From Candidatus Rifleibacterium amylolyticum (GTDB taxonomy: Bacteria; Muiribacteriota; Ozemobacteria; Ozemobacterales; Ozemobacteraceae): 64,000 nt of DNA. A program made the position numbers and the translations under genes. Each line of letters opens with the position of its first letter. Position 1 is the stretch's first letter. The DNA is taken from the NCBI GenBank assembly GCA_009917695.1, contig JAACJG010000001.1:331219-395218 (forward strand). Direction: 5' to 3'. Shown piece by piece: positions 2,670 through 60,561 of this stretch. The notes under the pieces were generated by a model. The model ran no database searches. It had not been told where the DNA came from and saw only the letters and a program-made list of their open reading frames with translations.

Positions 2670-5600
2670 TCAGGTGAGGCGGTAGAGCCTGAGGGCAGCG
2701 GCTTTGCCTTTGAGCGCAGCCTCTGAGTGCATCTTGAACCTGGTGGTGTCGGAGAGGCCGCTGACGAAGTCGTGTGAGAACAGGCAGCGCTGTTCGGGCA
2801 GTTTTTCGGCTTCTTTTTCGATGCGGGCACTGACGTTAACTGCATCGCCGATGACGGTGAAGTCGCGCTTGGCGCCGAAGCCAAGCATGCCGCTGATGAC
2901 TGTGCCGGCATTGACTCCGATGGCGACAGGAAAATGCAGTTCGCCAGTCTGCTCGGTCTGCATGATTTTCTGCGCAGCCTCGATGGCAGCCTGCCGCGCG
3001 GCTTCGGCCTGTGGCGCCCCTTCGGCTTCGAAGATGCCGAGAATTTTATCTCCCATGAGTTTGTCGATGTCGCCGCCCTGTTCGATGATGCAGCGACAGA
3101 GTACAGCAGTTTGTTCCTTTAATCTGGCAAAAAGAGTTTCTGTGTTTTCGTTGCTCAGTCTTTCGGCAAAATTCAGACTGCCAATGAACACGAATACAAA
3201 GTCTTTTCTTTTGCCAAGAAGGTCTGGTGGGGAATTTTCACCTGCCATGGCTTTTTGTGCACTGCGCGAGAGCATTTTTCCCATAATCTGTTTTTCGGCG
3301 AGACCCTGAGCGAAGTGGTCAAATGATGCGCAAAGTTGTCCAAGCTCATCGCTTCGATCGAGTGCAATACGATAAAAATAGTTCTGCTGACCAATCTGGC
3401 GCATACCCATGGTCAGCAGTCTGACCGGCGTTATAATGTCGGCAGCAGTCTGATGACCAATCACAATAAATATCATTAAAGCCAGCAGTATGAAGTAAAG
3501 CAGATAGGTTTTGATGGCTTCAGTTTCTCGGTAAACAGGTGTTTGCGCGCCGGCACCGACAATGATGTTGCTGAGTTGTTTTATTCCTTGCCTGCCTTCG
3601 ATGCTGACTATTTCTTTGCCTACAGGCTGATCATAAGATACAGGAAGATGTGAACCGCTGATCCAGGTTGCAGCCTTCTCCAGATTCAATCCTTCCAGCG
3701 GTTTGAATGCCGGTGAAAGTTCCCCGTATGCCTGGTGTTCAACTGTAAAAATTGCAAAGGGCCCCTTATTTCTTTTGGCCATGATGGTAAAGTAGTTGCC
3801 GCGTCGTTGCTCTGTCAGCCATACTATCATGAATTCCGGGTGTTCTATCGAAGGCAGTGGTGTGGTAAGCATGCCGGCTGCACCTGTTGTTACTTCAAAC
3901 TCTACCATCTGGTTGATCGCATTGGTTGTCTTGATGTAGGCTTCATCACCAAAGTTGGATCTGATGCTTTGCATGGCGCTGTCGTAAAAGAGATCACTTT
4001 TGAGATCCTTCATTGTCAAATCATCTGATCTGCTGCTGGACATCTGAGACAATACATGTTTACCAATCTGGCTTAACACGTTGGCAAAGTCTTCCTTTTC
4101 TCTGCTTCTGCTATTGCTGAAATTCAGATCCCAGTTTTTGCGGCTGACCAAAACCGCTTCACGCAGGGTTGTGCCGAAACACCAGCTTTTGAATGCCGAA
4201 AGCTGATCCAGATGTTTGTGGAACAGATTTCTCAGCTGCTCTTTGACTTCTTCTGATTCGGGGTTCTGATCAAGCTGGCGCGCCAGTTTCAGCGTCTCGC
4301 TGTTTCTGGCAAAGCTGGTCAGCATATTGATAACCCTTACATTGTCGAAGCTGAGTTTATATTCGTAGGTATCGAGGAAATGCTTAATTTCCAACTTCTG
4401 CTGATGGAGCATTACTCGATGGTTTTCTCTGGAAAAGTAGTTGGATACAAACATTACGGTGAACATCGGAATAACTGCTGTAAGCAGAATAGAAGCAATC
4501 AGTTTGTGTTGAATCGAGCGTGCCAAACCTGTTGTTCCGAAAACGGTGAGATGGAAATATCGGATTCCGATTGCTGTGATGCAAGCAAGAAGCAGCGCTA
4601 AGATATTCAGGTCAACTTTGCCGGACCGCGGCAGTCGACGTACAATCGACATTTGCCAGATGTCGTTGCCGGCACAAATTGAAGCGCTGGCAATGGCATA
4701 GTTGCCATTCGTCAGCGTGCCGGTGGCATTGAGTGATGGTATAAGTTCCTGCGGAAACTGATGGCTTTTACATATAACCCCGTTATTGGAAACAGCGGCG
4801 ATCTGGTTGTATTCATCGCTGTATTCATGAACAAGCAGTTCAATGCTTTTTTGCGCCAGTTTTTCTGGTATCGCAAACATTACAAGCCCGGCTATTCTCG
4901 AATTGTCATTTTCCCAGCCAGCCATCAGGTGGTTTTCAGCAGGGAGTGCCTGGTTGGCAGAGCTTTCAGGCTTGGCAAGAACATATTTCCAGTAGAACAG
5001 CTCATTTAGCTCTCCGTTCTTGACAGGCGTGGAGATTGCGATTCTTTCTGTGCAGAGGTGCTGTGCTGGAATGGCCATGCCAAACAGTTCGCTTGTGAAA
5101 GGATCTAGCAACGGTGGCATGTGGTCGTGCGCGCGTTTTTGATAGTAGTTGCAGAAATAGTTTGCCAGCAGGAAAAAATGATCTTTGTGAGATTCGCCAA
5201 TTCCAAGCGAATAGACAATATCGGGGGGAGCGGTTGCATTTTCCGGCTTGCAGCTTACTGCAAACACACGTGATGGTTCTATTCCTCGACTGCGAATCTG
5301 GGCAATTGTCTGCTCGATGTTTTTCGAGAAATTTCTGCCTTCTGCTGGATTATACCTGTAGGAAAGGTCGCTCTCTATGTCTTTGATAAGTCGAAGCATT
5401 GCATTTTCGTAAGCAGCTGCAAATGCTTTTTCAGACTTGATTTGCCTGATCAACCTGAACAGCTGTTCTTGTGCCAGAGTTTTATTATATTCATTTTCTG
5501 AATGCTGACCGAACGCTAACCCGAGATAGACTCCAAATGCGACGCTTACAGCAAAAAATGCGATCAGTGAAACAGCCAGCCAGTTGTATCTGCTGTCAGA

Positions 5601-8600
5601 AGCAGCGGTGCTTTTACTGCCTGTGACTTCTGTACTTTTCACGCGGCTGTTGCATAACGCATCATGAGACATAAAAGAGAAGTCGGCGATAATCCTGTTA
5701 CTCCATTCGTCATTATCGCCGATCGTCATAGCAACATGATTTTGTTGTTCTGGAATCTTTTTTGCAGTCAGCTTGCTGACAAAGCCGGCAATCTTGTCGT
5801 CGAATGCAACAGGCAGGTGAGGATAATTTCTGGTCAATGCTTCAAGCTCTCCGGCCCGCCTGAACGCTTCGCTGGTAATGCAGTAGTCAAGTCTGGTGCT
5901 TTCGTTGCCAACAGAACCGGCATAAAGCTCGCCGTATGCAAGGCCAACACCAAATTTATAGGTGAATTCACCGTTGCTGGCTCTCTTTTGATTGATAAGC
6001 TTCATCGCCGCATGCATTTCCAGGGCGGCTTTAAGTGACTTGTCAGCAACTTCTTCGGCGTTGTCTCCATTGAAAACAGCTTCTATGGCATCGCCGATGA
6101 ATTTATAGATTTTGCCGTCATTGCTGGCAATAATGCTGGCCATTATGGCAAAATGATGGTTGAGCATAGCAGTAATCTGGTTTGTGTCGTATGTTTCGCA
6201 CAAAGTTGTAAAACTTCTGATGTCTGAAACCAGAGCGATGCCGGTGAACGCCCTGGCGTCGTTCGTGGCGCCTGTTCCTTTATGACCGGCAAGAGCTTCG
6301 ACGGCATGGTCTGAGAGCAATGAAGCAAGTCTTTCGCGTTCTTTAATTCCCTCAATCATGCTTGCAAACTCATGGGTAAGATTGCCTAACTCATCGGTAC
6401 GTACAGAATCGAGATGAACGTTGTAATTTCCGGCTGTTACTCCGGCAAGAGCTGATTTAAGTTCTGTTATTGGCGTCAAGAGAAAGGCGGCGGTAAAGTA
6501 GGCGCAGATAGCTACAACGAAGAGTGAGATCATAAGAAGCACAATTAAGATCGACTGTCGTCTGCTTCCTTCAGCTTCAATCGAGGAGTGACTGGAAACT
6601 CCGGCTATAACGACCTCAGAGTCATTTCCAAAAGGCATGGCTACCACTGAAAGGCCGGTAAGATGCTCTTTGATTGAACCGCCGCGTGCCACAGCACTTT
6701 CCGCTGTCTTTGTGATATCAGTCATATGCTTTTCCAGTGCAGTACTTTCTGGCTGAAAAAGTATTTTGAGACCCTGTGGCGTGCTCTTAAATGCTATAAA
6801 TGAAAACTCCGGAAAACTGGTTTTGAAGCTTTCAATTGTGTTACGAATAGACTTTTCAAACAATTCCCTGCCGTCCCAGGCAATGAATAATGCAGCCCTT
6901 TTGTGCCCTTGAACGTTCAGATAGTCGTAGATCAGGCTGGCAGTACCACCGCCGGAGCTCTGGCTGAGTACAAAATTTCGGCGCTTTTCAAGTTCGACCA
7001 GAAAGGGATTGCCGGTAACGGAGCTATAGGCTTTGGCTCCGAGTTTCTCTTCTTCTGACAGCTTGAACTCTGGCAATATTGCCGATGGGTTGCTTATGGC
7101 AAACTGATTACGAAGATTAATAATTATCTGCGCCCGATAAATGGCAAAGATATCTTTCAACCTGCCTGCAGCACCTGCTTCGGCAAACTCAATTCCTTTT
7201 CCGGTCAGATCCAGCAGATAAAATCCGAGAAGAGGCAGAGGCATGTCTCGGTTGCGAAAGCTGTCCAATATCCTGTCTTTAACCTCTAAGCCATCGATTC
7301 CATGCTGTTCTATCATCAGGCTGAGTTCGCTGTCAGTAAAGAGCAGGCGTGAAGTGTTCTGGTATTCTTCCTGAATCTGCGTTTTTCTGGTCTCGAACTG
7401 TCTCAGGCAGCCCTCAAGATTTTCGGCAATCTGATTCTGGGCGGACTTAGCTGTCTGATAGTGATATGCTATTGCTGTTACCGTCAGAATGCCAAGAGGA
7501 AAAGTTGCAGCCAGAAAATAGAGCATGAGAAAACGCCATTTAAGGCCGGGTTCAAACCATATGTTCAACAACAGGCCTCTGAGTGAGAGCAATAAAACTG
7601 CTGTTGCGAAAATCAGATTCAGCATGCGAATCCAGCGGGGAGTATTCCTGATTTTAGGGAGTGGTGAGAGAAAAACCGTTAGATGATCGGTGTCCTCGCC
7701 AAGATAGGAAAAAATTTTGAAGTTACCTATCTTTTCTGGCTGTGGCGCTCCGTATGCAAGCCAGTGGGCCAGATTGCTGTTCAATGGCCTGATTCTGGTT
7801 TTTCGCCAATGCTGAAACGTGGGCGACATTTCCAGTCTGCCCAGACATTGAGCCGGTCTTGTGTCACCGGCAATCAGAGGAATGAATGCAGCCAGCCCTG
7901 TGCCGCGCCTGCTGCATTCTTCCAATGCGATTCTTTTTACCAGGCTGTTGCTGTGATCATTGATTTTAGCTGCAATAAAGTAGCCCCAGATACTGCCATC
8001 TTTGCTGTAATGGTAGTCCCAGATAAACCAGTGTGGTTGTCTGTCGTGAAGGATGTAGCTGATTCTTCCCTTCTGACTGCTAGCATAAGCCTCACTGTGA
8101 ACGGTTTTGCCGAAGTAGCTTTGGGCCAGTTTATTACGTTGCTTCTTTATCTCAGGGGCAATGGCCCGTTCCTGGTGCAGGTCGAGCATGTAGTCAAAAA
8201 TCAGGGCCATAACCCTTTTGCTCTCTATCTTGCTGCTTCTTGTGAAAAATAATTCTGAGCCTTTGTCAGAATTGCTTTTCTTGAAAAAATGCAATTTGAA
8301 ATCAGGGATCAGAGCCGAAAAGCTATTTTGACTCAATTCACCAAGCCGCTGGAATGCTTCTGGGTCATCAATATTTTCTTGCAGCAGCTTTTCAACCTGA
8401 TCTACAAACTTTCCGGTCCGGCGGCTGAACTGATATTCAAAATTTGAGCTGCGCGTAAGAGCTTCCAGTTCCTGGCGCGCAGTTTCGTCCTGTCTGCGTT
8501 CATTCCAGTGCCGCTCGATGTTTGCCAGGAAATAAAATCCCAGGTTTAATACTAAGACTGGCAGGAGAAACATGAAGTAAGGCAGCAATCGCAGCCATTT

Positions 8601-8630
8601 GCTGTCATGTCCTGATCCGACAGTTTTCAT
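2670..8630 (-). CDS. tandem double class III adenylate cyclase receptor (paralogue 1)
   Basis: A 1986-residue membrane protein made of two similar halves. Each half is TM - large extracytoplasmic region (~300 residues) - TM-TM - second extracytoplasmic region - TM - HAMP - class III cyclase. Likely spans are near residues 12-34, 338-360, 370-394, 693-718, 1014-1040, 1335-1355, 1372-1395 and 1710-1733. Domain A (about 790-960) keeps metal-binding Asp803 and Asp847 but has Arg924 and Glu928 where the transition-state Asn and Arg belong. Domain B (about 1800-1986) has Gly1817 in place of the first metal Asp, but keeps Asp1861, Lys1857, Thr1925, Asn1932 and Arg1936. One complete ATP site is therefore expected at the A/B interface. 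The start has a GGAG site and overlaps the stop of the upstream paralogue by four bases (ATGA), so the two are co-translated. The ligand is unknown. Confidence 0.9.
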   Translation of the reverse strand: MKTVGSGHDSKWLRLLPYFMFLLPVLVLNLGFYFLANIERHWNERRQDETARQELEALTRSSNFEYQFSRRTGKFVDQVEKLLQENIDDPEAFQRLGELSQNSFSALIPDFKLHFFKKSNSDKGSELFFTRSSKIESKRVMALIFDYMLDLHQERAIAPEIKKQRNKLAQSYFGKTVHSEAYASSQKGRISYILHDRQPHWFIWDYHYSKDGSIWGYFIAAKINDHSNSLVKRIALEECSRRGTGLAAFIPLIAGDTRPAQCLGRLEMSPTFQHWRKTRIRPLNSNLAHWLAYGAPQPEKIGNFKIFSYLGEDTDHLTVFLSPLPKIRNTPRWIRMLNLIFATAVLLLSLRGLLLNIWFEPGLKWRFLMLYFLAATFPLGILTVTAIAYHYQTAKSAQNQIAENLEGCLRQFETRKTQIQEEYQNTSRLLFTDSELSLMIEQHGIDGLEVKDRILDSFRNRDMPLPLLGFYLLDLTGKGIEFAEAGAAGRLKDIFAIYRAQIIINLRNQFAISNPSAILPEFKLSEEEKLGAKAYSSVTGNPFLVELEKRRNFVLSQSSGGGTASLIYDYLNVQGHKRAALFIAWDGRELFEKSIRNTIESFKTSFPEFSFIAFKSTPQGLKILFQPESTALEKHMTDITKTAESAVARGGSIKEHLTGLSVVAMPFGNDSEVVIAGVSSHSSIEAEGSRRQSILIVLLMISLFVVAICAYFTAAFLLTPITELKSALAGVTAGNYNVHLDSVRTDELGNLTHEFASMIEGIKERERLASLLSDHAVEALAGHKGTGATNDARAFTGIALVSDIRSFTTLCETYDTNQITAMLNHHFAIMASIIASNDGKIYKFIGDAIEAVFNGDNAEEVADKSLKAALEMHAAMKLINQKRASNGEFTYKFGVGLAYGELYAGSVGNESTRLDYCITSEAFRRAGELEALTRNYPHLPVAFDDKIAGFVSKLTAKKIPEQQNHVAMTIGDNDEWSNRIIADFSFMSHDALCNSRVKSTEVTGSKSTAASDSRYNWLAVSLIAFFAVSVAFGVYLGLAFGQHSENEYNKTLAQEQLFRLIRQIKSEKAFAAAYENAMLRLIKDIESDLSYRYNPAEGRNFSKNIEQTIAQIRSRGIEPSRVFAVSCKPENATAPPDIVYSLGIGESHKDHFFLLANYFCNYYQKRAHDHMPPLLDPFTSELFGMAIPAQHLCTERIAISTPVKNGELNELFYWKYVLAKPESSANQALPAENHLMAGWENDNSRIAGLVMFAIPEKLAQKSIELLVHEYSDEYNQIAAVSNNGVICKSHQFPQELIPSLNATGTLTNGNYAIASASICAGNDIWQMSIVRRLPRSGKVDLNILALLLACITAIGIRYFHLTVFGTTGLARSIQHKLIASILLTAVIPMFTVMFVSNYFSRENHRVMLHQQKLEIKHFLDTYEYKLSFDNVRVINMLTSFARNSETLKLARQLDQNPESEEVKEQLRNLFHKHLDQLSAFKSWCFGTTLREAVLVSRKNWDLNFSNSRSREKEDFANVLSQIGKHVLSQMSSSRSDDLTMKDLKSDLFYDSAMQSIRSNFGDEAYIKTTNAINQMVEFEVTTGAAGMLTTPLPSIEHPEFMIVWLTEQRRGNYFTIMAKRNKGPFAIFTVEHQAYGELSPAFKPLEGLNLEKAATWISGSHLPVSYDQPVGKEIVSIEGRQGIKQLSNIIVGAGAQTPVYRETEAIKTYLLYFILLALMIFIVIGHQTAADIITPVRLLTMGMRQIGQQNYFYRIALDRSDELGQLCASFDHFAQGLAEKQIMGKMLSRSAQKAMAGENSPPDLLGKRKDFVFVFIGSLNFAERLSNENTETLFARLKEQTAVLCRCIIEQGGDIDKLMGDKILGIFEAEGAPQAEAARQAAIEAAQKIMQTEQTGELHFPVAIGVNAGTVISGMLGFGAKRDFTVIGDAVNVSARIEKEAEKLPEQRCLFSHDFVSGLSDTTRFKMHSEAALKGKAAALRLYRLT

Positions 8631-11600
8631 GCAAAACTCCTTCCAGAGCAGGTATTATCTGATTTTAAGACTGCGAAGCTGACTTGGAAAAGCTTTATAG
8701 TTTCTGTCTTGCCTTTGAGTGCAGCCTCTGAGTGCAGTTTGAATCTGGTGGTGTCGGAGAGGCCGCTGACGAAGTTATGTGAGAACAGGCAGCGCTGTTC
8801 GGGCAGTTTTTCGGCTTCTTTCTCGATACGGGCGCTGACATTAACGGCATCGCCGATGACAGTGAAGTCGCGCTTGGCGCCGAAGCCAAGCATGCCGCTG
8901 ATGACTGTGCCGGCATTGACTCCGATGGCAACAGGAAAGTGCAGTTCGCCAGCCTGCTCTGCCTGCATGATTTTCTGCGCCGCCTCGATAGCAGCCTGCC
9001 GAGCGGCTTCGGCCTGTGGTACTCCTTCGGCTTCGAATATGCCGAGAATCTTGTCGCCCATGAGTTTGTCAATGTCGCCGCCCTGTTCGATGATGATTCG
9101 GCAGAGCTTAGCTATCTGAATTTTGAGTTTTGCGAAAAGCTCTTCGCTGCTTTTGCTGACAAGGCGACTGGCAAAATCGACAATGCCGATGTAAATCAGC
9201 ACGTATTCCAGCTTTTTGCCGGCCAGCGTTTCACCCTGGCCGGCGCTTACTGTCATCGCCCGCTGAGCGCTGCGCGACAGCATTTTCCCCATCATTTCCT
9301 TCTCAGCAAGGCCTCGGGCAAAGCGGTCATACGAGGCACAGAGTTCGCCCAGTTCGTCGTTGCGGTCGAGATGTATACGGTAGAAATAATTCTGACGGCC
9401 AATCTGTTGCATGCCGTCGCTGAGCGCACGCACTGGTATCATAATGTCAGAAGCTGTTTGAAAGCCTATCAAAACGAACAGAAGTATTGCCAATGCCATG
9501 AAGTAACGCAGATAGCTCTTAATCGATGCAGTTGCCTGTTCTATTGGCGTTTGCATGGCGGCACCAATCAGGAAGCTGTTGAACTGGGATATACCCGGTC
9601 GGCCTTCGATACTTATCTTTGTCTGCCCGATCTGCCGCTCACTTGAAACCGGAAAATTCGAGTTTGCTATCCAGGCGGACTCCCGGAAAAAATTGAGCCC
9701 CGGTACAGGTCTGAATTTGCGCGTCAACTTGCCATAGCGCTGATATTCTATTGAGCATACGGCGAAGGCGCCCTGCTGATGCTCGGCAATTCTGGTTAAA
9801 TAACCACCTCGGCTGAATGATAATATCCACAAGCTCATGAATTCAGGATTATCAAGCGAAGGCATCGGGATAACAAATACCCCGGCGGCACCTGTGGTAA
9901 TTTCGAATTCGACCAGTTCGCCAACAGCATTGCTCAGCCGTATGTAAGTAATATCGCCAAAGTTCGATCTCAGGCTCTGCATGGCGCCGTCAAAATACAG
10001 CTCACTTTTCAGATTTTTCATCGAGAGATTGGCTGATCCGCTATTGCCTGTAATGCAATTGTAAAGGTGTCTGCCGATCTGACTCATGACGCTGACAAAG
10101 GTGTCTGACTCTTTTGGGGTTGAAGTGCTGTAGCGGAACTCAAGGCTTTGCCGGTTCTGCAACAGAAAGTTGCGGGCAGTTGCATTGTTTTCCCAGTGCT
10201 GATCAGCGTTAATTGCTTTGAAGCAGTCGGCCAGAAAATCGTGCATATCGTTCTTAGCTTTTTCTGAATCGGGATTTTGCTCAAGCTGGCGAGCCAGTTC
10301 AAGCATGCGTGGTTGTTCAGCAAACTTCTGAATCTGTCTGGTAACGACAGGGTTGATATAATATTGTCTGCCTTCGAACTCGTCGAGGGAGCGTTTTATT
10401 TCGAGTCGCTGTTGCTGTATGGCGGCCTGGTGGTTTTCAAAGATGAAATAACCGGCAATGAAAGCAACGGTAAGCATTGGAATCATTGCCGTCAGCAGAA
10501 CCGAAAACAATAGTTTGCCCTGGATGGATCTGGAAACAGCAGTAGCAGAATATTGTGATCGGTAGAAGTATGCGAGAGATAATAAAGATACAAGAAGAAG
10601 GGCCAGGCCGGTTTGCCCGAGGTCATGTCTGCCGGCATCTATTCGAGCGGCAGCCACGAGTTTGAATTTTTTGCCGTTTTTTATGATTTCATCAGTTTCA
10701 ATAAGATAGTTGCCTGCAATATTGTCTGTTTCAGAGGCTTTGGCGCTCAAAAGATCGACAGGAAAATCCCGGCGATGGAATACTTCTCCACCACTCGCAA
10801 TCAGCGCAATTTCACAGTCTGAGTCGCTGTAAGCATCTACCAGCAGGCTCGGGTTACCTGCTGCCTGATTGGGATCTATCGAAAACATGAGAATGCCGGC
10901 AACTCTCATGTCTCTGTCTTCTATTCCGAGCAGTTCACTGTTATTGGAAGGAGGCGGACGAGCAAGCACTTCATCTGAAAAGACCCGGTAAAAGTTCCAG
11001 TAAAACAGTTCAGTTCCGCTGTTTCCCTCGATTGGCATGCTGAAGCCTATTTTTTCGGCTGCAAGGTGATTTGCATCGAAGTCGGTATTGAAGAACTCAT
11101 GCATCTGTAAATCTAATGCATCTTCGATGGCATCGCGACCGAAGTCGTTGAAGTAGAGCAGTAGAAAATGTGCCAGTCGATGATAAAAATTCTGCTGGTA
11201 TTCGTTCAACCCAATGTTAACGGCAATTTCGGGTGGAGATGAGGCAGTATCAGTAAAGTCTGTTGTCGCAAATACCCGGCGAGGCTGCAAGCCAATGTTT
11301 TGCAGTTCCGCAATCATTTTCTCGATACTTGCGCTGATAATGCTGGCATCATCGGGCTTTCGTCTGAAGCTCAGCCTGTTTTCCGTGGTTTCAAGCAGCT
11401 TCTCCATTTTCAGTTCAAAGGCGATTTTTTCGGAATTTTCGGCGTTAATTTGCCTGATCAGGCGAAAAACTTTTTCTGAGGCGTTGTTCTGACTGAATCT
11501 CAACATCATCTGGTTATCGATAGCAAGACCATAATAGACGACAACGGCACACAAAACAGTGAAAGTCGCGAACAATGTCAGGCTCAAGGCCCGGTAACCG

Positions 11601-14600
11601 CTGGTGGAAACGTTCCTCGCACTTTTTTCAGCAGCAGGACAAGGCTGTAGATTGTCTGCATCGCAGCTTCTGTTCGGCTTCTGGTCAATGTTGAGCATGC
11701 GGTGGTATGCGCTGCTGGACTCATTGATTGTGTAAGCTTCTACAGTATCTGAAGCGGTTACGGCCTTTGAATCTTCAATCAGAGAAGCAATTTCATAGTC
11801 AAAGGCCAGGGGAATACCAGAAAATTGCCTGGTTGCAGCTTCAAGTTGTGCCGCTTTATGAAAGGCCTCGCTGATTATGCTGTAATCCAGCCTGGTGTCT
11901 TCGCTGCCGACCGAACCGGCGTAAAATATGCCTTTGGCCAGGCCAATTCCGAATGTGTAGGTGAAAACCCCGTGCTCTTCTCTTCTGGCGTTTATCTCGG
12001 AAAGTGCCGAATACATGCGTAAGGCGGTTTTTATGGCGTTTTCAGCTGTTACCTGGTCATCATTTCCGTCGAAAACGGCTTCAATAGCATCGCCGATGAA
12101 TTTGTATATGCGGCCGCCATTCTCAGAGATAATTTCTGACATGACTGCAAAATGATGGTTGAGCATATCGGTAATCTCATCAGATGGCCGGCATTCACAG
12201 AGAGTTGTAAAATTTCTGATATCAGAAACCAGTGCAATGCCGGTAAATGACTGTGCGCCGCTGTCGGCGCGGGTCTCTGGATCTTTAACCAGAGCTTCAA
12301 CAGCATGATCTGATAACAGCGTGGCGAGGCGTTCGCGCTCCTTAACGCCTTCGGCCATCTGTGCAAATTCGCGGGTCAGCCTGCCGAGTTCGTCGGCTCT
12401 TTCCGCATCGAGTCTGACATTATAATCGCCACTGGCGATACGATCGAGAGCCTGCTTGAGTTCTCTGATCGGGTCGAGCAGAAATCGCGCAGTAAAATAG
12501 GCACACAATGCCGCAATTACCAGTGAAAGCACGATCAGCATGGCAAACAGACGGCGGCGGCTGCTTTCTTCGACTGCAATTTGTTGATGTCCGGCCATGC
12601 CGGCTATGACGATTTCTGAATTCTGACCGTATGGCATGGCAACGACTGAGATGCCTGTCAGATGTTCGTTTACCGTTCCACCTCTGGCGACCGCAGTTTC
12701 TGCCACACGCGAAATATTTGAAAAATGCTGGCGAATCAGATCTTCATCTGGCCGGTAGATGGTTTTGAGACCCTGCGGTGTGTTTCGGAATGCGATGAAA
12801 GCATAGTCGGGAAAACTGGTTCTGAAGTTTTCTATTATTGTCTGTATCGATTTTTCGAAAAGTGTGGCTATGTCCCAGACAATGAACAGCACGGCCTGAG
12901 AGACTCCTCTGATCGAGATAAAATCATAGATGATGGTTGCGGCTCCGTCGCCGGTCTGCTGATTCAGGCAAAAGTTACGTCTTTTCTCGATTTCGACGTT
13001 GAGATCGTTACCTGAAACAGCCGAATAAGCCTGCGAACCAAATGTTTCCTGTTCAGAAACAGCAAATTCCGGGAGTTCTACCTCCGGGTGTTTGAGTGCA
13101 TAGCGTCGTCGCAGATTCTGGATGATCGCTGCCCGATAAACACTGAAAATATCTTGCAAGCGGCTTTTATTGGTCTCGTAGTTGTATTGAATGCCTTCGC
13201 CTTTAAGGTCGAGTAGATAAAATCCGAGCAGAGGCAGCGGCAGTTCCCGGTCAAGGAAATTTGCTATAACTCTTTCTTTAACCAGATCGGCTTCAATACC
13301 ATGCTGCTCGATAAGCTCGGCCAGGCGGGTGTCGGTGAACATTTGCCGGGCAGCCGTCTGGTAGTCTTCCTGAATCTGCATTTTGCGTGTTTCGATCTGA
13401 CGCAGGCAGCCTTCGAGATTTTCAGCGATCTGGTGCTGAGCAGATCGACTCGACTGGTAATGATAAGCGACTGCGCTGACAGCAAGCATGCCGAGTGGAA
13501 AGGTTGCCGCCAGAGAATATAGAATCATGAAGCGAAGTGTCAGGCCGGTTTCGAGCCAGCGCCCAAGCATAAGACCTCTAAGTGAAAGGAGCAGGCTCAG
13601 GGTTACGATAGCCAGGTTGACAAGTCGGAGCCACGCCGGGGTCTCAGCTTGATGTGTTGCCGGTGCCAGAAAGACGGTAAGATATTTGCTCTCCTTGCCC
13701 AGGTAAGTATAGAGGCTGTGTTCGCCCAGGCTGATTTTGGGCGGCGGTCCGTGCGTAACCCAGTAGGCGAGATCTTTAGCAGGCGAACTAACCTGACTTT
13801 TTCGCCAATCCTGGAAGAGAGCGGAATTTTCGAGCTCATGTGCGAGAATCGCAGGAGCTTCAGCGTCGATAACTGGTATAAATCCGGCCAAACCTTTGCG
13901 GCGCTGAAGGCATTCTGCCAATGCCAGCTTTTGTGCGGCCTGTTGACTGTTTTCGTCACTTTTGCAGGCAATAAACCAGCCCCAGGTGCCACTGCTTTTG
14001 AAATCGCGATAATCCCAGAGGAACCAGTGTGGCCTCCCGTCGCGCAGAATCTTACTGGTGCGCCCTTTCTGGCTACGGGCAAATGCTTCACTGCGTGCGG
14101 CACGGCCAAAATAGGTTTCGGCCAGCTTGTCGCGCTGCTTTCTGATTTCGCCGCTCATTGGCTCGTCGCGATGCTGATCGATCATGTAGTCGAAGATCAT
14201 CGCCATTGCCCGCCGACTTTCGACCCGGTCGCTTCTGACGAAAAACAATTCAGCTGCGGCAGAAGCGGTAGTTTTTCTAAAAATATGCAGAGCATAGTCT
14301 GGTGCCAGGGTTTGCAGACAACTCTGACTTTCAGCGGCGATCCGAGTCAGTAACAGTTCTTTACTCGTTTCGCCAGACGTTTCTTCGGCAGCTTGCAGCG
14401 CATTTTCAAGCTTCTCGGCAAGCTGACCTGCCGCCCGGTTAAGTCGGTATGAAAACGATGAACTACGCGTCAGCGCTTCGAGTTCCTGGAGCGCGATTTC
14501 GCCCTGTGCCTTCTCCTGCCAGTGCAGTTCGATTGTGGCCAGAAAGTGAAAACCGAGATTGAACACCGCCAACGGCAGCAGCAGCATGACATACGGCAAC

Positions 14601-14650
14601 AGCCGCAACCATGTCTGCCCCTGCTTCCCGCCAGCCACATCTCGCTTCAT
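8627..14650 (-). CDS. tandem double class III adenylate cyclase receptor (paralogue 2)
   Basis: About 2007 residues with the same 4TM-HAMP-cyclase A-4TM-HAMP-cyclase B layout as the gene that follows it. Domain A has metal Asp810 and Asp854, with His931 and Gln935 replacing the catalytic Asn and Arg. Domain B has Gly1822 at the first metal position, Asp1866, and intact Lys1862, Thr1930, Asn1937 and Arg1941. The frame is open to 14689, but I place the start at ATG 14650 because the N-terminus then matches both paralogues (about 15 residues before the first span); neither start has a strong ribosome site. The last ~140 codons are almost identical to those of paralogue 1, while earlier regions are clearly diverged, which suggests gene conversion. 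It is the first gene of a two-gene operon. Confidence 0.9.
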   Translation of the reverse strand: MKRDVAGGKQGQTWLRLLPYVMLLLPLAVFNLGFHFLATIELHWQEKAQGEIALQELEALTRSSSFSYRLNRAAGQLAEKLENALQAAEETSGETSKELLLTRIAAESQSCLQTLAPDYALHIFRKTTASAAAELFFVRSDRVESRRAMAMIFDYMIDQHRDEPMSGEIRKQRDKLAETYFGRAARSEAFARSQKGRTSKILRDGRPHWFLWDYRDFKSSGTWGWFIACKSDENSQQAAQKLALAECLQRRKGLAGFIPVIDAEAPAILAHELENSALFQDWRKSQVSSPAKDLAYWVTHGPPPKISLGEHSLYTYLGKESKYLTVFLAPATHQAETPAWLRLVNLAIVTLSLLLSLRGLMLGRWLETGLTLRFMILYSLAATFPLGMLAVSAVAYHYQSSRSAQHQIAENLEGCLRQIETRKMQIQEDYQTAARQMFTDTRLAELIEQHGIEADLVKERVIANFLDRELPLPLLGFYLLDLKGEGIQYNYETNKSRLQDIFSVYRAAIIQNLRRRYALKHPEVELPEFAVSEQETFGSQAYSAVSGNDLNVEIEKRRNFCLNQQTGDGAATIIYDFISIRGVSQAVLFIVWDIATLFEKSIQTIIENFRTSFPDYAFIAFRNTPQGLKTIYRPDEDLIRQHFSNISRVAETAVARGGTVNEHLTGISVVAMPYGQNSEIVIAGMAGHQQIAVEESSRRRLFAMLIVLSLVIAALCAYFTARFLLDPIRELKQALDRIASGDYNVRLDAERADELGRLTREFAQMAEGVKERERLATLLSDHAVEALVKDPETRADSGAQSFTGIALVSDIRNFTTLCECRPSDEITDMLNHHFAVMSEIISENGGRIYKFIGDAIEAVFDGNDDQVTAENAIKTALRMYSALSEINARREEHGVFTYTFGIGLAKGIFYAGSVGSEDTRLDYSIISEAFHKAAQLEAATRQFSGIPLAFDYEIASLIEDSKAVTASDTVEAYTINESSSAYHRMLNIDQKPNRSCDADNLQPCPAAEKSARNVSTSGYRALSLTLFATFTVLCAVVVYYGLAIDNQMMLRFSQNNASEKVFRLIRQINAENSEKIAFELKMEKLLETTENRLSFRRKPDDASIISASIEKMIAELQNIGLQPRRVFATTDFTDTASSPPEIAVNIGLNEYQQNFYHRLAHFLLLYFNDFGRDAIEDALDLQMHEFFNTDFDANHLAAEKIGFSMPIEGNSGTELFYWNFYRVFSDEVLARPPPSNNSELLGIEDRDMRVAGILMFSIDPNQAAGNPSLLVDAYSDSDCEIALIASGGEVFHRRDFPVDLLSAKASETDNIAGNYLIETDEIIKNGKKFKLVAAARIDAGRHDLGQTGLALLLVSLLSLAYFYRSQYSATAVSRSIQGKLLFSVLLTAMIPMLTVAFIAGYFIFENHQAAIQQQRLEIKRSLDEFEGRQYYINPVVTRQIQKFAEQPRMLELARQLEQNPDSEKAKNDMHDFLADCFKAINADQHWENNATARNFLLQNRQSLEFRYSTSTPKESDTFVSVMSQIGRHLYNCITGNSGSANLSMKNLKSELYFDGAMQSLRSNFGDITYIRLSNAVGELVEFEITTGAAGVFVIPMPSLDNPEFMSLWILSFSRGGYLTRIAEHQQGAFAVCSIEYQRYGKLTRKFRPVPGLNFFRESAWIANSNFPVSSERQIGQTKISIEGRPGISQFNSFLIGAAMQTPIEQATASIKSYLRYFMALAILLFVLIGFQTASDIMIPVRALSDGMQQIGRQNYFYRIHLDRNDELGELCASYDRFARGLAEKEMMGKMLSRSAQRAMTVSAGQGETLAGKKLEYVLIYIGIVDFASRLVSKSSEELFAKLKIQIAKLCRIIIEQGGDIDKLMGDKILGIFEAEGVPQAEAARQAAIEAAQKIMQAEQAGELHFPVAIGVNAGTVISGMLGFGAKRDFTVIGDAVNVSARIEKEAEKLPEQRCLFSHNFVSGLSDTTRFKLHSEAALKGKTETIKLFQVSFAVLKSDNTCSGRSFA

Positions 14651-33912: not shown

Positions 33913-34505
33913 TCTTTGAGTTCTCCGTAGATTCGTGAGGCCAGACGAAGAAGGGCAGCAGGAATTTGCAGCCGGCTTTTTTCAGCCGAATCTAAATTGA
34001 CATTGAAGCGCATGCGCCCTTCAATGATCTGAAAGTCAATGTGGGTGCCATTTTTAGCGAATTCTTCCGAGTCGCCGACGGTGAGAACTGGTTGCCCGTT
34101 AACTTCTGAAAGAAGCTCGTCTAAGTGCATCTGCTCGCTTTTTTCGATGAAAACGAGATGATACTCGTGGTGCTTTTTTGCTTCATACTGTACGACAGCA
34201 ACTTTTCGATCGTGAATTTTTTCTGCTCCAGCGCGGTTCAGCAGATATGAATCGAAGGGATCGCGGCCGGCAATGGCGATCACAAAGGGCTGGTCGGGGC
34301 TCGAGAATGCTTCAGCCGGCCAGCTGACGAACTCGGCGATACGAAACAACATCTCGGCTTTGACCTGATATTCCGGAAACCCGGGCTTACTCTGCGCCCA
34401 CAGGGTTGAGCCAAGTGTCAGCAGAAATACCAGAACCAGCGACACCGGTATTTTGTATGCATTTAATCTCCTGTCAGGCCATCTGTCACTGCGACTGCGA
34501 AGCAT
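33909..34505 (-). CDS. YfiR-family periplasmic protein
   Basis: About 198 residues from ATG 34505, comprising a basic N-terminus, a signal/anchor segment and the YfiR (DUF4154) domain. The pattern of the family is clear: the Lys-Ala-x-x-Leu-x-x-Ile-x-x-Phe-Val-x-Trp-Pro opening, an (F/V)-x-I-x-(I/V)-x-G-x-D-P-F strand, the FIEKSE segment, and the end motif MRFNVNLDSAEKSRLQIPAALLRLA (given in outline). In Pseudomonas YfiR is a periplasmic repressor of a cyclase; here the downstream partner is a histidine kinase. Starts at 34529 or a TTG at 34628 are possible; none has a strong ribosome site. The gene is followed with overlap by the kinase and preceded by a TonB receptor. Confidence 0.85.
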   Translation of the reverse strand: MLRSRSDRWPDRRLNAYKIPVSLVLVFLLTLGSTLWAQSKPGFPEYQVKAEMLFRIAEFVSWPAEAFSSPDQPFVIAIAGRDPFDSYLLNRAGAEKIHDRKVAVVQYEAKKHHEYHLVFIEKSEQMHLDELLSEVNGQPVLTVGDSEEFAKNGTHIDFQIIEGRMRFNVNLDSAEKSRLQIPAALLRLASRIYGELKE

Positions 34506-34617
34506 AGCTGAAGCAGGAAGCAATCTCATTGCATTCTCATAAAGCATCGGCAGCGATCGTGGCAATTGTCTATGTCCTGACGCTTTGCTTTCTGCAATGA
34601 CGGAAAAAGAATGCTTC

Positions 34618-49306: not shown

Positions 49307-52300
49307 ATGAATACAAGCAACGCTCAGCGACAAGGCCAGAAGCAGTCTGGCTTCCTTTTGATCATTCTTTGCTTTCTGCCATTGATTGCGCTGAATATTG
49401 GTTGGTCTTTTCTCGACAACATAGATTATTATTGGAAGACGCGCGAACAGCATGAAATAGCCAACCAGGAAATCGAGTCGCTGGCGGCCGGCTCAGAATT
49501 TTCCTACCAGTTCGCCAGACTTGCCGGCCAGTTTGCCAAAACTTTCAAAGCTGCTGCCGAATCAGGTATCGAAGCTGACAGGCTTGCCCAGTATGTCGAT
49601 GAGAAGGCTCGTCGCGTTTTTCGCTGGCCATTTCCTGAATATGAGCTGTTTGCCTTTCATATTCCAGCAGATGGAAATGGCGGCGATATTCTGTTCATGC
49701 ACTCAGATCTGCGGCCGTCGCGGCGGATGTATGTGCGGGTTTTTGAGCATCTGGTGAGAGTAAGCCGGGGCGAAGACGTCTCGGGCGCAATAGGTCGCCA
49801 GAACGAAAAACTTCTGGCCAGAATTATTCAGAATGAGGCAAAGTCTGAGATAATGGCCAGGACTCAACGGGGCCGCGCTTCATTTGCTTTCTACCGTTTT
49901 TTTCCGCACTGGTTTCTCTGGGACTTTTTCGAGGTGCCTGGCCAGGGTTGTTATGGCTATTTTTTGTTCAGCCATAATGACGAAAAGCGAAGAACTGCCG
50001 CAAAACTGCTGGCATTGCGCGACCTGCGCGAACGCAGCAGCTCAAAAGGAGCTTTTATCCCTCTTTATTCGGGATACGGTGGCGCGGTTATGCAGGAGCC
50101 TCTTAACCGGTCAAAGCTTTTTACCGGCTGGGCGAAAAACTTCATATCGCCGGTAGAAAAAGATCTGGCCAGATGGTTGCAGGATGGCACGCCGTCAGTC
50201 TCGCGGCTTGGAAGATATGACGTGTTCTCTTATCTTGGCAAAAGTCATACACATCTGACAACTCTGGTGATGCCTGTAGTCGAGAAGCGTGGACGCCCTC
50301 TGTGGCTTAACTGGATCAGTATTTTCGTCTCGTCATTTTTGATGCTCTTGCTGGTGCGGGGTATTTTGCTTGGGCAGTGGCCAGAAACAGGCATCAGGCT
50401 ACGCTTTATCTGCACCTATCTGCTGGTAGCGTCGTTGCCGGTAAGCCTTTTGATTATCACAGCCTACAGCTATGTCACCCAATATCGACGGGCAATTCAC
50501 TTTCAGTCCGCGACAGGCCTGCAGTCCTGTCTCAGACAGTTTGATGCGCGCAAAGCCCAGGTGAATGACCAGTATCGCGCGGCCTTTGCAGAAATGGCCG
50601 AAGATCAGGTGTTACAGAAAATCCTGACAGACAATGGTGCTGAGAGTGTGGAAGCACGTGACCGAATTCTCAGCCATTTTGAGGGCCGTTCCGAGCCGTT
50701 GCCACTTCTCAGTTTCGCAATTTTTGATGAAAACGGCAAGGGTTCAAGGTATTACTTTGGGCAGAGTCAAAGTGAGTCTGATCCAGCTATTGAAGCTTTT
50801 CGTTACCCGATCGTTCAGATGCTGCGCCGGAAAATGGAAGTATACGAGCCTGGCCGCGCGTTCGCACCACTGAAGATGTCGAGTATACAGGAGACTTCTC
50901 TCGAAGCCTATAAATCAATGACGGAAAACGATCTTGTCGAAGAAATGGATAAGCGCAGGTCTTTTCCGATTTCTCGGCAGATTGGTGCAAAAATAGCCAC
51001 TCAGATTCACGAACTGATCAAGATCAACGGACGTGAACGTTTTGCCGTATTTCTGGTCTGGGATGACCAGGCTCTCGATGAAAAAATCTTCCAACAGTCG
51101 GTAAATCACTTTGGCTTGAATTCACCTGAATACATGTTTCTCGCATACCGGGTTAAACCGCAGGGGCTCGAGCCCATAGGCATACCAGGCCGCGATGCTG
51201 ACGCCGAAGTTGTTGGTCGCGCTTACCATATTGCCGAGCAGGCTTACTTCAGAGGCAGTTATGTCGGCAGTCGCGCCGAAAACCTGTCGATTGTGGCTAT
51301 TCCGTCAAAAAAATATGCCCATACCGTTCTGGTAGGCGCAACCCGCCATCATGATCTCGAACAATCCGTTGCCTGGCGGTTGTTTTTGCTTGCCGGGCTG
51401 TTGTTGCTTGCTTCTTTTATCGTACTGTTCTGTGCCTATCTGTCAGCACGGATTATTCTCGACCCGATTACTGGTCTCAGGTCAGCTTTAAACCGAGTGG
51501 CGGCCGGAAATCTCAATATTGAAATCACCAGCCGGAGCCTGGATGAACTGGGCAGACTCTGTCATGAGTTTTCAACCATGACTCGTGGCCTGCGCGAACG
51601 CCAAAAGCTCGCGTCGCTGCTGTCTGATCAGGCGGTCGAAGCTATTTCACGCTCCGATGAAACAGGAAAGCTTGTTGGCGAATCTTTTAATGGCGTGGCA
51701 CTGGTTTCTGATATTCGCAATTTCACCGGACTCTGCGAAGAACATTCGCCCGATAAAATTACCGAAATGCTCAACGAGCATTTCGCCCAGATGACAGAGA
51801 TAATTTCAGGGCAGGGCGGTTGCATTTACAAGTTTATCGGTGACGCTATTGAAGCGGTTTTTCCCGAAGACGACGCTCTTGAGGAAACCGCTTCAGAACG
51901 AGCCTTTCGCGCAGCAAGCCTGATGTTGCTTCGTCTCAGAAGCATCGATGCCCGCCGCGCCGCACAGCAGCTGTTCAGCTATCGTATCGGTGTCGGACTG
52001 GCTTATGGACAGATGCATTCTGGCTCGATCGGAAGCCTCGAAACCCGTCTTGACTATGCTATTCTTGGCGAGCCTTTAAAAACTGCTGCCAGACTGGAAG
52101 CTTTGTCGCCGATCAACCCTGCTTTCCCTCTGATCATCGATGAGACGGTCATGAAGAATCTTCCTGAATCAGGACTGAATTTTATTCGCCTCGAGAACAG
52201 CAGCCATCAGATTGCTTACAGCTTATCGGCGATTGGCGAAATACAGCCGGCAAAAATTTCTCAGGTTGAAAAGGTTCTTCCTGCAGACGTCGCAGCAAAA

Positions 52301-55291
52301 TTGCCAGAAAGCGTTGCCAGTTCTCAGGTGATTGCTGTAGAGGCCGGCGGTGACAGCGGTTTGTCTGCTGGCTGGGTTTTTGCACTTGGTGCTTTGCTCG
52401 TAGCACTGCTGGCTGTAGGAGTTGTATCAGGCTGGCGAACCGTTGTTGAAGCGAAATATGATGCCGAAAAAGTGCGTGCGGTGGCAGAAAATCTTCGCCT
52501 GATCGAACAGCTTAAGTGTGACAGCGCGGTCAGAGTAGGTTTTGAAACTAACTGTTTCAGAATTACCGAATCTGTCGAAAGCCTGATGCAGAAGGCACAA
52601 AACCTTTCTCAATCAGAACTGGCAACAGCTGTCAGGGCTGCAATACTGTCGCAGGCTAATCCTGAAAGCCGGCCGACCAGATTCGCGGTATTTCTTTTCG
52701 ATCCTGATACGGCTGACAGCGACAAAGCAATCGTTGAGAAAATTCTCGTGGCAGAAGGCTGGAAAAGTGAGCAGCTACAGGCACTGCGTGATGAAGTGGA
52801 ATTTCGGCGTCGTCTCGATTTCAGGCCATGGAGCTATTGGATTCAGAACTCGGCATCTCCAGTTCTGAAGGAAATTTTTGGCAATCAGATATCTCAGGTC
52901 GTTCTACAGCGCGAACTGTTTTGTCGGGCGACCGAACTGCCATGCAACGGTAATCCGCAGTATTTTTACTGGGATTATCTAACGGTTGCAGAAGATGATG
53001 TGGCCGGCAATACTGATACAAACAGCGGCAAAGAAAAGCTTCGCAGGGTGCGGGGCATGGTAATGCTGGCGGTTGAGGCCGAGAAGATGAAAGACTCTGC
53101 GTCAGCTCTTGTAACCAGCTACCAGCAGGAGCAAAAGGCAATAGCACTTGTCTCCGGCAGCGGCACCATGCACTTTTCTTCTAATTTCCCACCGCTTCTG
53201 GCGGCAAGGCTGAAAGCTGGCAAAGCTTTGTCCGAGTCTGATTACCATCTCATAAACGAAGATGAGCTTAAAATTGGCAGACAGCAGTATCGTTTGCTGG
53301 TATGCCATCTTGCATCAAAGACGCCGCAGGTTGACACCGGATTTTTGATGGCTGGCGTGGCCTTTCTGGCTGGCATTCTTCTCTGGTACTGGTTCAAGAC
53401 GGTGCGTGGCGATACTCGCGCCAGTCGCTCGCTCGCGGCGCGCCTATGGCTTTTGTTGCTGTTGTCGGCGGTGGTGCCTCTGATCACTGTGTTTTTTGTT
53501 TTCAGCCTGTATCTTAACGAAGATTACAATGTCAGAATCTCGCAGACAAGGGCCGACCTCAATCGAACCAACGATTTGTTTGAGTTGCGCGAGAGTTTTG
53601 TTGATCCGCTTGCCTGGAAATTTGTGCGTGAGCACACGTTTTCGCCTGAAATGAGAGAAATTGCTGCCGAACTGGAGGTTGCTTCGGGATCTGCTTTAAC
53701 TGACCGCCTGGATCGGCTGGTTCGTTCCTGGTATAGTGATCACGAAAAAAGTGACCCGATGATCATCAATTATAATCCGCGAGATATCGCTGTGGCTGGA
53801 CGAAATGGCTGGGAATACGCGACTTCCGGTGGGGCGCAATCAGATACCAATACATTTGGTGTAATGCTCAAGCAGATTGCCAGAACCATAATGAAGAATC
53901 GAATTCAGACGCCAGTTGACAATGAAGGCATCGATGCGGCAGCAATTCAGGGAGAAATGGTTGTTGAAACCGGACTGCAGACTGTCAGATCACTGTTCGG
54001 CGATGATGTGTTTGTAAAACTGGCGAATGGTGTTGGTTTACCGGTGCTGATGAATGTTGTTGCCGGAACCGCCGGGCTGGTTATTCATGCCGTTCCAGAT
54101 ATCGAGACACCGAAATATGTCATGATCTGGCTTATAATGTTTGATTATGAAGGTTATATGGCCAGGATCGCAGCAGGATATCGCGGCGACTATCTGCTTA
54201 TGCCGGTCGAGGCACATCGTTACGGCAATGTTTTCAGACAGCAATACTACCGGGCACGGCATGAAATTGTGCAGATGGCTTCCTGGATCGCGTCGGCAAA
54301 TCTGCCGGTTTCCGGGCGTATCAACTACCAGGGTGCCTGGCATCTGGCCGAAGGGCGTCCAGGCGTTTCTCAGATAACTTCTTTGATGATCGGCCTGGCG
54401 CCAGAAGCGCCAATTGATCAGGCTATTTTCACAACCAAAATCGCATTTGTTCTGCTTATGGCCGGAATTCTTCTTTGCGTTCTACTTATTGCCCGAAGCG
54501 TCGCTGATGACATTCTGGTGCCAATAAGAAGTCTGATTTCTGGCATGCAGCAGGTTGTGAGAGAGAGTTACTCATTCCGCATCGAGAGCGCCAGAACCGA
54601 TGAGCTGGGTTCGCTGTGTTCTTCCTTTGACAGCATGATCAGAGGACTCGAAGAAAAGATGCTTATGGGGCGAATGTTGTCAAAAAGTGCGCAGAAGTTT
54701 TCGTTGCAGGAAGTTGATGTGGAAGGCAGCAGAAAAGACTTTGCGCTTCTATATGTCGGAATTCCCTCTTTTGAAGCCTGGATGACAGGTGCAGCCAAAG
54801 AATCACTGTTTGCCGATCTCAGAGAACAGGTGGCACTTGTTGCCAAAATTATCATCGCTGCCGGCGGTGACATCGACAAGGTTATTGGCGAAAAAATACT
54901 GGCAGTCTTTCATAGCGAGGGTAACCCGGCCGAAGCGGTGACCTCCGCCTGTCGGGCTGCTCTTCAGATCAACGCGGCCGAAGGGCGCGGCGCCCTGCCT
55001 TTTCCGACGGCGACGGCAGTCAATTATGGCACAGTCATTGCCGGCTTTCTCGGTGTCGGTGGCAAGCGCGATTTTACCGTGATCGGTGATGCTGTAAATG
55101 TTACTGCCCGCATCGAGGCTCAGGCCGAAGTTATGCGCTATCAGCGCTGTCTTGCTTCTGAGCTGGTTCTCGATCTTTTGCCGGCCGACGTTCTTGCCCG
55201 CGAACATGGCGAAGTTGAATTGAAAGGCAAGGCAAAGCCGATGAAGCTCTATCAGCTCACCACCAACAGCCCCAGCATCCTCGGCTATTGA
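49307..55291 (+). CDS. tandem double class III adenylate cyclase receptor (paralogue 3)
   Basis: About 1994 residues with the same double 4TM-HAMP-cyclase plan as the two genes at 2.7-14.7 kb but well diverged. Domain A has metal Asp802 and Asp846; the catalytic Asn is Lys925, while Arg929 is kept. Domain B has Gly1818 and Glu1862 in place of both metal Asp residues, and intact Lys1858, Thr1924, Asn1931 and Arg1935. Domain B therefore cannot bind the two metals and must act with domain A. ATG 49307 gives an N-terminus aligned with the paralogues; the frame opens at 49241. Unlike the other two it is monocistronic, transcribed divergently from the secreted cluster. The two extracytoplasmic regions per half differ most, suggesting a different ligand. 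Confidence 0.9.
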   Translation: MNTSNAQRQGQKQSGFLLIILCFLPLIALNIGWSFLDNIDYYWKTREQHEIANQEIESLAAGSEFSYQFARLAGQFAKTFKAAAESGIEADRLAQYVDEKARRVFRWPFPEYELFAFHIPADGNGGDILFMHSDLRPSRRMYVRVFEHLVRVSRGEDVSGAIGRQNEKLLARIIQNEAKSEIMARTQRGRASFAFYRFFPHWFLWDFFEVPGQGCYGYFLFSHNDEKRRTAAKLLALRDLRERSSSKGAFIPLYSGYGGAVMQEPLNRSKLFTGWAKNFISPVEKDLARWLQDGTPSVSRLGRYDVFSYLGKSHTHLTTLVMPVVEKRGRPLWLNWISIFVSSFLMLLLVRGILLGQWPETGIRLRFICTYLLVASLPVSLLIITAYSYVTQYRRAIHFQSATGLQSCLRQFDARKAQVNDQYRAAFAEMAEDQVLQKILTDNGAESVEARDRILSHFEGRSEPLPLLSFAIFDENGKGSRYYFGQSQSESDPAIEAFRYPIVQMLRRKMEVYEPGRAFAPLKMSSIQETSLEAYKSMTENDLVEEMDKRRSFPISRQIGAKIATQIHELIKINGRERFAVFLVWDDQALDEKIFQQSVNHFGLNSPEYMFLAYRVKPQGLEPIGIPGRDADAEVVGRAYHIAEQAYFRGSYVGSRAENLSIVAIPSKKYAHTVLVGATRHHDLEQSVAWRLFLLAGLLLLASFIVLFCAYLSARIILDPITGLRSALNRVAAGNLNIEITSRSLDELGRLCHEFSTMTRGLRERQKLASLLSDQAVEAISRSDETGKLVGESFNGVALVSDIRNFTGLCEEHSPDKITEMLNEHFAQMTEIISGQGGCIYKFIGDAIEAVFPEDDALEETASERAFRAASLMLLRLRSIDARRAAQQLFSYRIGVGLAYGQMHSGSIGSLETRLDYAILGEPLKTAARLEALSPINPAFPLIIDETVMKNLPESGLNFIRLENSSHQIAYSLSAIGEIQPAKISQVEKVLPADVAAKLPESVASSQVIAVEAGGDSGLSAGWVFALGALLVALLAVGVVSGWRTVVEAKYDAEKVRAVAENLRLIEQLKCDSAVRVGFETNCFRITESVESLMQKAQNLSQSELATAVRAAILSQANPESRPTRFAVFLFDPDTADSDKAIVEKILVAEGWKSEQLQALRDEVEFRRRLDFRPWSYWIQNSASPVLKEIFGNQISQVVLQRELFCRATELPCNGNPQYFYWDYLTVAEDDVAGNTDTNSGKEKLRRVRGMVMLAVEAEKMKDSASALVTSYQQEQKAIALVSGSGTMHFSSNFPPLLAARLKAGKALSESDYHLINEDELKIGRQQYRLLVCHLASKTPQVDTGFLMAGVAFLAGILLWYWFKTVRGDTRASRSLAARLWLLLLLSAVVPLITVFFVFSLYLNEDYNVRISQTRADLNRTNDLFELRESFVDPLAWKFVREHTFSPEMREIAAELEVASGSALTDRLDRLVRSWYSDHEKSDPMIINYNPRDIAVAGRNGWEYATSGGAQSDTNTFGVMLKQIARTIMKNRIQTPVDNEGIDAAAIQGEMVVETGLQTVRSLFGDDVFVKLANGVGLPVLMNVVAGTAGLVIHAVPDIETPKYVMIWLIMFDYEGYMARIAAGYRGDYLLMPVEAHRYGNVFRQQYYRARHEIVQMASWIASANLPVSGRINYQGAWHLAEGRPGVSQITSLMIGLAPEAPIDQAIFTTKIAFVLLMAGILLCVLLIARSVADDILVPIRSLISGMQQVVRESYSFRIESARTDELGSLCSSFDSMIRGLEEKMLMGRMLSKSAQKFSLQEVDVEGSRKDFALLYVGIPSFEAWMTGAAKESLFADLREQVALVAKIIIAAGGDIDKVIGEKILAVFHSEGNPAEAVTSACRAALQINAAEGRGALPFPTATAVNYGTVIAGFLGVGGKRDFTVIGDAVNVTARIEAQAEVMRYQRCLASELVLDLLPADVLAREHGEVELKGKAKPMKLYQLTTNSPSILGY

Positions 55292-60458: not shown

Positions 60459-60561
60459 CGAGGATTCTGTATATCTTTGTTGGTTGGCAAAGAGTGCTGG
60501 TGATGCTATTATCTTAGCAAAGTACGCAGGTGCGCAAAAATTTGTCGATCCGGAGGACGTT

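Follow-up and report, generated by a model that had tools for sequence, protein, structure and literature searches.

In class III nucleotide cyclases, the active sites lie at the dimer interface, where one protomer provides the metals and the other provides the residues for the base and the transition state. In bacterial homodimeric receptor cyclases, such as class IIIb enzymes with HAMP and the classical membrane homodimer Rv1625c, a membrane part and a helical transducer precede a class III domain; each protomer carries all six residues, and two equal sites are formed. In animal membrane adenylyl cyclases (ADCY1-9), one chain contains two repeats of a membrane part and a cyclase domain. The first cyclase domain gives the metals and the second gives the lysine, the base selector, the asparagine and the arginine, resulting in one live site and one dead site. 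In soluble guanylate cyclase, alpha and beta form an obligate pair in which one subunit supplies the metals and the other supplies Asn and Arg. ADCY10 (sAC) has two complementary cyclase domains per chain with the class IIIb selector; they lie side by side at the N-terminus and are followed by ATPase/TPR regions, with no membrane parts. A perspective published in 2022 on the evolution of cyclases describes fused dimeric enzymes of class III as unknown among bacteria and asks what advantage the fused form has over the bacterial monomer-dimer equilibrium (PMC9552081). In the open-access literature, we found no paper on Riflebacteria cyclases and none on bacterial obligate heterodimeric class III cyclases. 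A Physarum paper (PMC4758236) concerns a eukaryote.

The window, a stretch of 64,000 nucleotides from the genome of Candidatus Rifleibacterium amylolyticum, holds three fused receptor cyclases (Table 1). The plan of each is a membrane half of four helices, a HAMP domain and a class III cyclase domain, all present in duplicate. The Pfam model Guanylate_cyc (PF00211) matched each chain twice above its cut-off (E-values of 1e-20 to 1e-21), and HAMP also matched twice per chain, while no AAA or TPR match was obtained with Pfam in the fused chains. Hydropathy of P0001 gave exactly eight membrane segments, four per half. The two cyclase domains of one chain are about 1000 amino acids apart, with four membrane segments and a HAMP domain between them. 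P0002 and the start of P0001 overlap by 4 nt.

Table 1. Fused receptor cyclases in the window and their domains (positions in the window).
Feature	Position	Strand	Evidence or residues
P0001, fused receptor cyclase, 1986 aa, 4TM-HAMP-cyclase A-4TM-HAMP-cyclase B	2670..8630	-	ORF, Pfam, hydropathy
P0001 cyclase domain A (aa 800-953)	5772..6233	-	D803, D847 kept; Thr->Cys917, Asn->Arg924, Arg->Glu928
P0001 second HAMP domain (aa 1732-1777)	3300..3437	-	Pfam
P0001 cyclase domain B (aa 1814-1963)	2742..3191	-	first metal Asp->Gly1817; K1857, D1861, T1925, N1932, R1936 present
P0002, fused receptor cyclase, up to 2020 aa	8627..14689	-	ORF, Pfam; later start possible at codon 14
P0002 first HAMP domain (aa 732-782)	12344..12496	-	Pfam
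P0002 cyclase domain A (aa 820-974)	11768..12232	-	D823, D867 kept; Thr->S937, Asn->H944, Arg->Q948
P0002 cyclase domain B (aa 1832-1981)	8747..9196	-	Asp->G1835; K1875, D1879, T1943, N1950, R1954 present
P0003, third fused receptor cyclase, 2016 aa	49241..55291	+	ORF, Pfam, residues
P0003 first HAMP domain (aa 735-786)	51443..51598	+	Pfam
P0003 cyclase domain A (aa 821-976)	51701..52168	+	D824, D868 kept; Thr->A940, Asn->K947; Arg951 kept
P0003 cyclase domain B (aa 1837-1984)	54749..55192	+	both metal Asp lost (G1840, E1884); K1880, T1946, N1953, R1957 kept

The original prediction had described P0001 and P0002 as two proteins with this plan. Both ORFs are where it placed them, with the predicted domain order, and all the residues that it named were correct; its numbers for P0002 are lower by 13 because its start was set 13 codons later. 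The spacing of the two metal positions is indeed 44 residues in domains A and B of both proteins. In the alignment, no metal Asp was found elsewhere in the B domains, and no Asn or Arg elsewhere in the A domains.

The fused chains share with ADCY1-9 the repeated membrane part and the division of catalytic residues, but several features are different. The animal enzymes have six membrane segments per half, whereas P0001 has four, with large extracytoplasmic regions; they have the Asp selector of class IIIa, whereas the B domains here have the Thr of class IIIb; and they have no HAMP and are controlled by G proteins and forskolin, whereas the chains here have HAMP and their closest relatives are bacterial. 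The unfused A and B genes described below are comparable to the subunits of soluble guanylate cyclase. That enzyme, however, is soluble, senses NO and makes cGMP, whereas these are membrane receptors with HAMP and the Lys/Thr pair. The side-by-side cyclase domains of ADCY10 are likewise unlike the fused chains. The six residues found together in a bacterial homodimeric protomer are split here, although the intact singles of about 970-1020 amino acids in the same genome (L043, L046) resemble those homodimeric enzymes.

A profile search of the genome (a 5.39 Mb assembly of a relative of Candidatus Riflebacteria) detected 61 Guanylate_cyc domains, and the six catalytic positions (D1, K, D2, T, N, R) were read from the HMM alignment for all but one of them. 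Domains with both Asp kept and N and/or R lost were defined as A-type, and those with D1 or D2 lost and T-N-R kept as B-type. The split cyclases of the genome were five fused chains and 13 adjacent A+B gene pairs, in which each unfused gene encodes 929-1016 amino acids. For example, DKDIEA was paired with xKHTNR (x = no aligned residue), DKDAQK with HKDTNR, and DRDSQE with QKDTNR. Every pair, fused or unfused, consisted of one A and one B (18 of 18), an arrangement that random dealing of 18 A and 18 B labels into 18 pairs would give with a probability of 2.9e-5. The B domain of L035 has an Asp at the first metal position but a Glu at the second, so it is still B-type. The two genes of most unfused pairs overlap, by 1 to about 40 nt; because they are adjacent and mostly overlapping, they are probably co-translated. 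No orphan A-type or B-type half was present among the cyclase domains read in this genome. The remaining cyclases read were intact singles, including genes of 968-1018 amino acids, similar in length to one half, except for two degenerate domains (L015, L048). The two proteins originally noticed are thus joined by a third chain in the window and by two more fused chains and the 13 unfused pairs elsewhere in the genome, and they belong to a family-wide series rather than being a two-protein oddity.

The genome also has 19 cNMP-binding domains, which are possible candidates for cAMP readers. The neighbors of the unfused pairs (gamma-glutamyltranspeptidase, DNA polymerase, ankyrin and others) gave no clue to a ligand. 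The number of class III cyclase domains, 61 in 5.4 Mb, exceeds the figure of up to 30 per bacterial strain quoted in the perspective (PMC9552081). Elsewhere in the window, an FHA/protein kinase protein (60484-63213) has a weak cyclase-like stretch in its N-terminal part (aa 37-175, DLDNNR), with an E-value of about 1e-6 with our own HMM and no Pfam cyclase match. There is also a cluster of a hybrid histidine kinase (CHASE8, PAS, receiver), a YfiR/HmsC-like protein and a TonB-dependent receptor (31660-36870).

The six positions were tabulated for 36 fused and 18 unfused pairs (54 in all), taken from this genome and its relatives. Both metal Asp were kept in the A domain of all 54 pairs, and Lys, Asn and Arg were kept in all 54 B domains. 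The base selector in B was Thr in 53 pairs and Ser in the remaining one. Asn or Arg was lost from A in 53 pairs, and a metal residue was lost from B in every pair, so that the second site was always broken. A complete set of two Asp, Lys, base selector, Asn and Arg was therefore available to an A:B dimer in every one of the 54 pairs, the selector being Ser instead of Thr in one of them. The split residues, the duplicated membrane half, the one live and one dead site, and the Lys/Thr pair of class IIIb, all of which had been predicted for P0001 and P0002, thus extend to the whole set.

The Lys position behaved differently in the two domains: 14 A domains had Arg or Gln there, whereas every B domain kept the Lys. 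Drift confined to A is expected if only the Lys of B is used and if one composite site is under selection while the other is not constrained. At the dead site, 14 of the 36 fused chains had Lys-Lys in A, often with B carrying Glu in place of the second metal Asp. The dead site of many fused chains is therefore not drifting freely. The Lys-Lys and Glu could possibly form a salt bridge or belong to a regulatory pocket; a regulatory role for the dead site is speculation.

A single fused chain in a related genome, L070:7530-13544, kept both Asn and Arg in A (DKDSNR) and lacked the first Asp in B. Its A domain is an argument against the obligate A:B reading given below. It looks like either a late intermediate or a reversal.

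P0001 and P0002 were about 92-98% identical in DNA sequence over about 120 codons of cyclase B (2730-3089 and 8735-9094), whereas identity outside this stretch was only about 45-65%. In the relative G002 (L070), the two B domains were each other's closest in the tree while the A domains were not. From the sequences, both cases look like gene conversion that affected only the catalytic B domain.

We consider it highly probable that these receptor adenylate cyclases are obligate A:B pseudoheterodimers with one active site and cAMP as the product. The basis of this reading is the residues, the architecture, the one-to-one pairing of A and B genes, their conservation and their phylogeny. We infer from these the dimer geometry, the product, the fold and ligands of the sensors, and pairing within the chain, as follows. 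Each half would sense through two extracytoplasmic, probably dCache-like regions and relay the signal to its cyclase domain via HAMP and a short helix. A and B would pair head-to-tail, with A giving the two metal aspartates and B contributing the residues for the adenine (Lys, Thr) and for the transition state (Asn, Arg). Since the residue content leaves A:A and B:B without a complete site, only A:B should work, with a single complete site making cAMP and the other site dead. As A:A and B:B dimers would be inactive, output would require both sensor halves together. The class IIIb assignment comes from the Thr base selector in the residue-donating B domain (53 of 54), and the Lys/Thr pair predicts ATP as substrate and thus probably cAMP as product, a preference read from two residues only.

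In the unfused pairs, the site would form between two proteins; in the fused chains, it would form most simply within one chain. HAMP domains usually act as dimers, and the two HAMP domains of a fused chain could pair either way. As the unfused pairs must build their site from two proteins, fused chains might do the same, giving a dimer of chains with two A:B active sites. We regard this as unlikely, because the two HAMP and two cyclase domains of one chain can satisfy each other, and animal enzymes of the same plan pair such domains within the chain. Much less probable still is that the fused chains are no longer enzymes and that both domains are regulatory relics, binding nucleotide or signaling by contact. 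The residue content certainly leaves one site dead, and cyclase activity is predicted from sequence alone, but relics would lose both sites, whereas the residues of exactly one composite site were kept in all 54 pairs while the second site decayed.

Structure models were made for parts of P0001. An AlphaFold model of aa 789-1986 from five sequences had a mean pLDDT of 48, with most of cyclase B below 50, so that its A-B interface was unreadable. The model of the first sensor half (pLDDT 66) showed the order TM, sensor domain, TM, TM, sensor domain, TM, HAMP. No Pfam dCache match was found in the extracytoplasmic regions of the window chains. Foldseek searches from the models with pLDDT 66 and 48 gave weak matches to dCache domains; for the first half, most top PDB matches were ligand-binding domains of the dCache kind from chemoreceptors or kinases, which are hints only.

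Relatives were sought by tblastn over 57 genomes and with a profile in 40 genomes of the phylum. Both searches found fused chains, about 2000 amino acids long, across genera of the window's own family, and none outside it among the matches listed. About 45 fused chains were recovered from the relatives' DNA, all with the split. An assembly artefact or read-through was ruled out, because these are about 45 stop-free chains of such length in many genera. Among the best 80 loci of a genome-contig scan, the complementary pattern was seen in Riflebacteria only (L109 and L110 fused; L113 and L156 unfused), and in a sample of 198 genomes of another phylum there was no fused chain among the matches listed. 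A second family (G025, G032) had unfused pairs in B-A order, with the second Asp also lost in B (L189-L194). In a third family, two adjacent dCache receptor cyclases (L195:2291-6620) showed the same split: one gene lacked the first metal Asp (KKDTNR) and the other lacked Asn (DKDSSR). No HAMP match was found in this pair.

Another family of Riflebacteria had soluble tandem cyclases followed by AAA_16 and a weak TPR (L200, L201), with complementary residues (DKDLRA with xKQTNR in L201; DLDVDR with xSDSNR). In sequence they are putative sAC-like pseudoheterodimers in bacteria. With such tandems in a related genome, the membrane receptors are not the sole fused bacterial form.

A maximum-likelihood tree of the HAMP and cyclase domains, with the catalytic columns removed, placed the fused chains with the unfused pairs L032, L035, L036 and L106, and a second set of unfused pairs (L031, L034, L037-L041) elsewhere. 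A grouping of all A domains in one clade and all B domains in another was absent from the free tree. For the two larger families, however, one common A/B split was not rejected (AU 0.22 and 0.32), so the two large groups of pairs need not have arisen separately. A tree in which the L195 pair shared the A/B split of either larger family was rejected (7e-9, 5e-12). This pair thus has a separate origin of the complementary split, seen in one pair in one genome. A clade of all the fused chains and nothing else was rejected (5e-57), while a clade that also included the unfused pair L106 was not (0.22). When the halves were concatenated, the tree separated five fused chains (L088, L103, L104, L107, L108) from the main fused clade. 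These trees may fit one fusion with a later split or two fusions. The sensors of the A and B halves matched each other weakly, as would be expected if a whole half had been duplicated, which is also inferred for animals.

When compared with the PDB, the A and B profiles matched best with bacterial class IIIb structures (OaPAC, bPAC, CyaB; about 1e-25 to 1e-28), and mammalian membrane cyclases were far poorer matches for both. Among the mammalian membrane cyclases and soluble guanylate cyclase, A aligned with AC5 C1 and the alpha subunit, and B with C2 of AC2, AC5 and AC8 and the beta subunit. Descent of the fused chains from a eukaryotic tandem cyclase (membrane adenylyl cyclase or sAC) by gene transfer would explain this alignment of A with C1 and B with C2 and the identical order of the metal half and the Asn/Arg half, but it is hardly credible given the far better bacterial class IIIb matches of both domains, the Thr where class IIIa has Asp, the HAMP domains and four-helix halves, the occurrence in the phylum of unfused pairs and intact singles, the several pairs in B-A order and the one pair that arose separately. 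The animal-like division of labor was likely reached from different ancestors by convergence, as originally proposed, because the nearest relatives are bacterial class IIIb enzymes and because plausible single-gene and gene-pair intermediates are present in the same genome.

The likely route, independent of animals, is from an intact single gene to a coupled A+B gene pair and then to a fused chain. It is quite likely that the way in which animal adenylyl cyclases arose has been replayed in this phylum: receptor cyclases acting as homodimers were duplicated, the copies lost opposite half-sites and were coupled as obligate heterodimers, some of which fused, joining two different sensor halves at one active site. 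Complementary loss would have occurred at least twice, the L195 pair being apart.

While class III cyclases themselves are known, what appears to be new in these sequences is a bacterial receptor with HAMP that follows the C1/C2 logic of animals and is accompanied by unfused and intact forms. A single bacterial genome contains fused chains, obligate pairs of separate genes and intact singles, which opens the question of the advantage of fusion to experiment without the G-protein control of animals. The series suggests that split-site pseudoheterodimers evolved outside eukaryotes through intermediates that can be observed.
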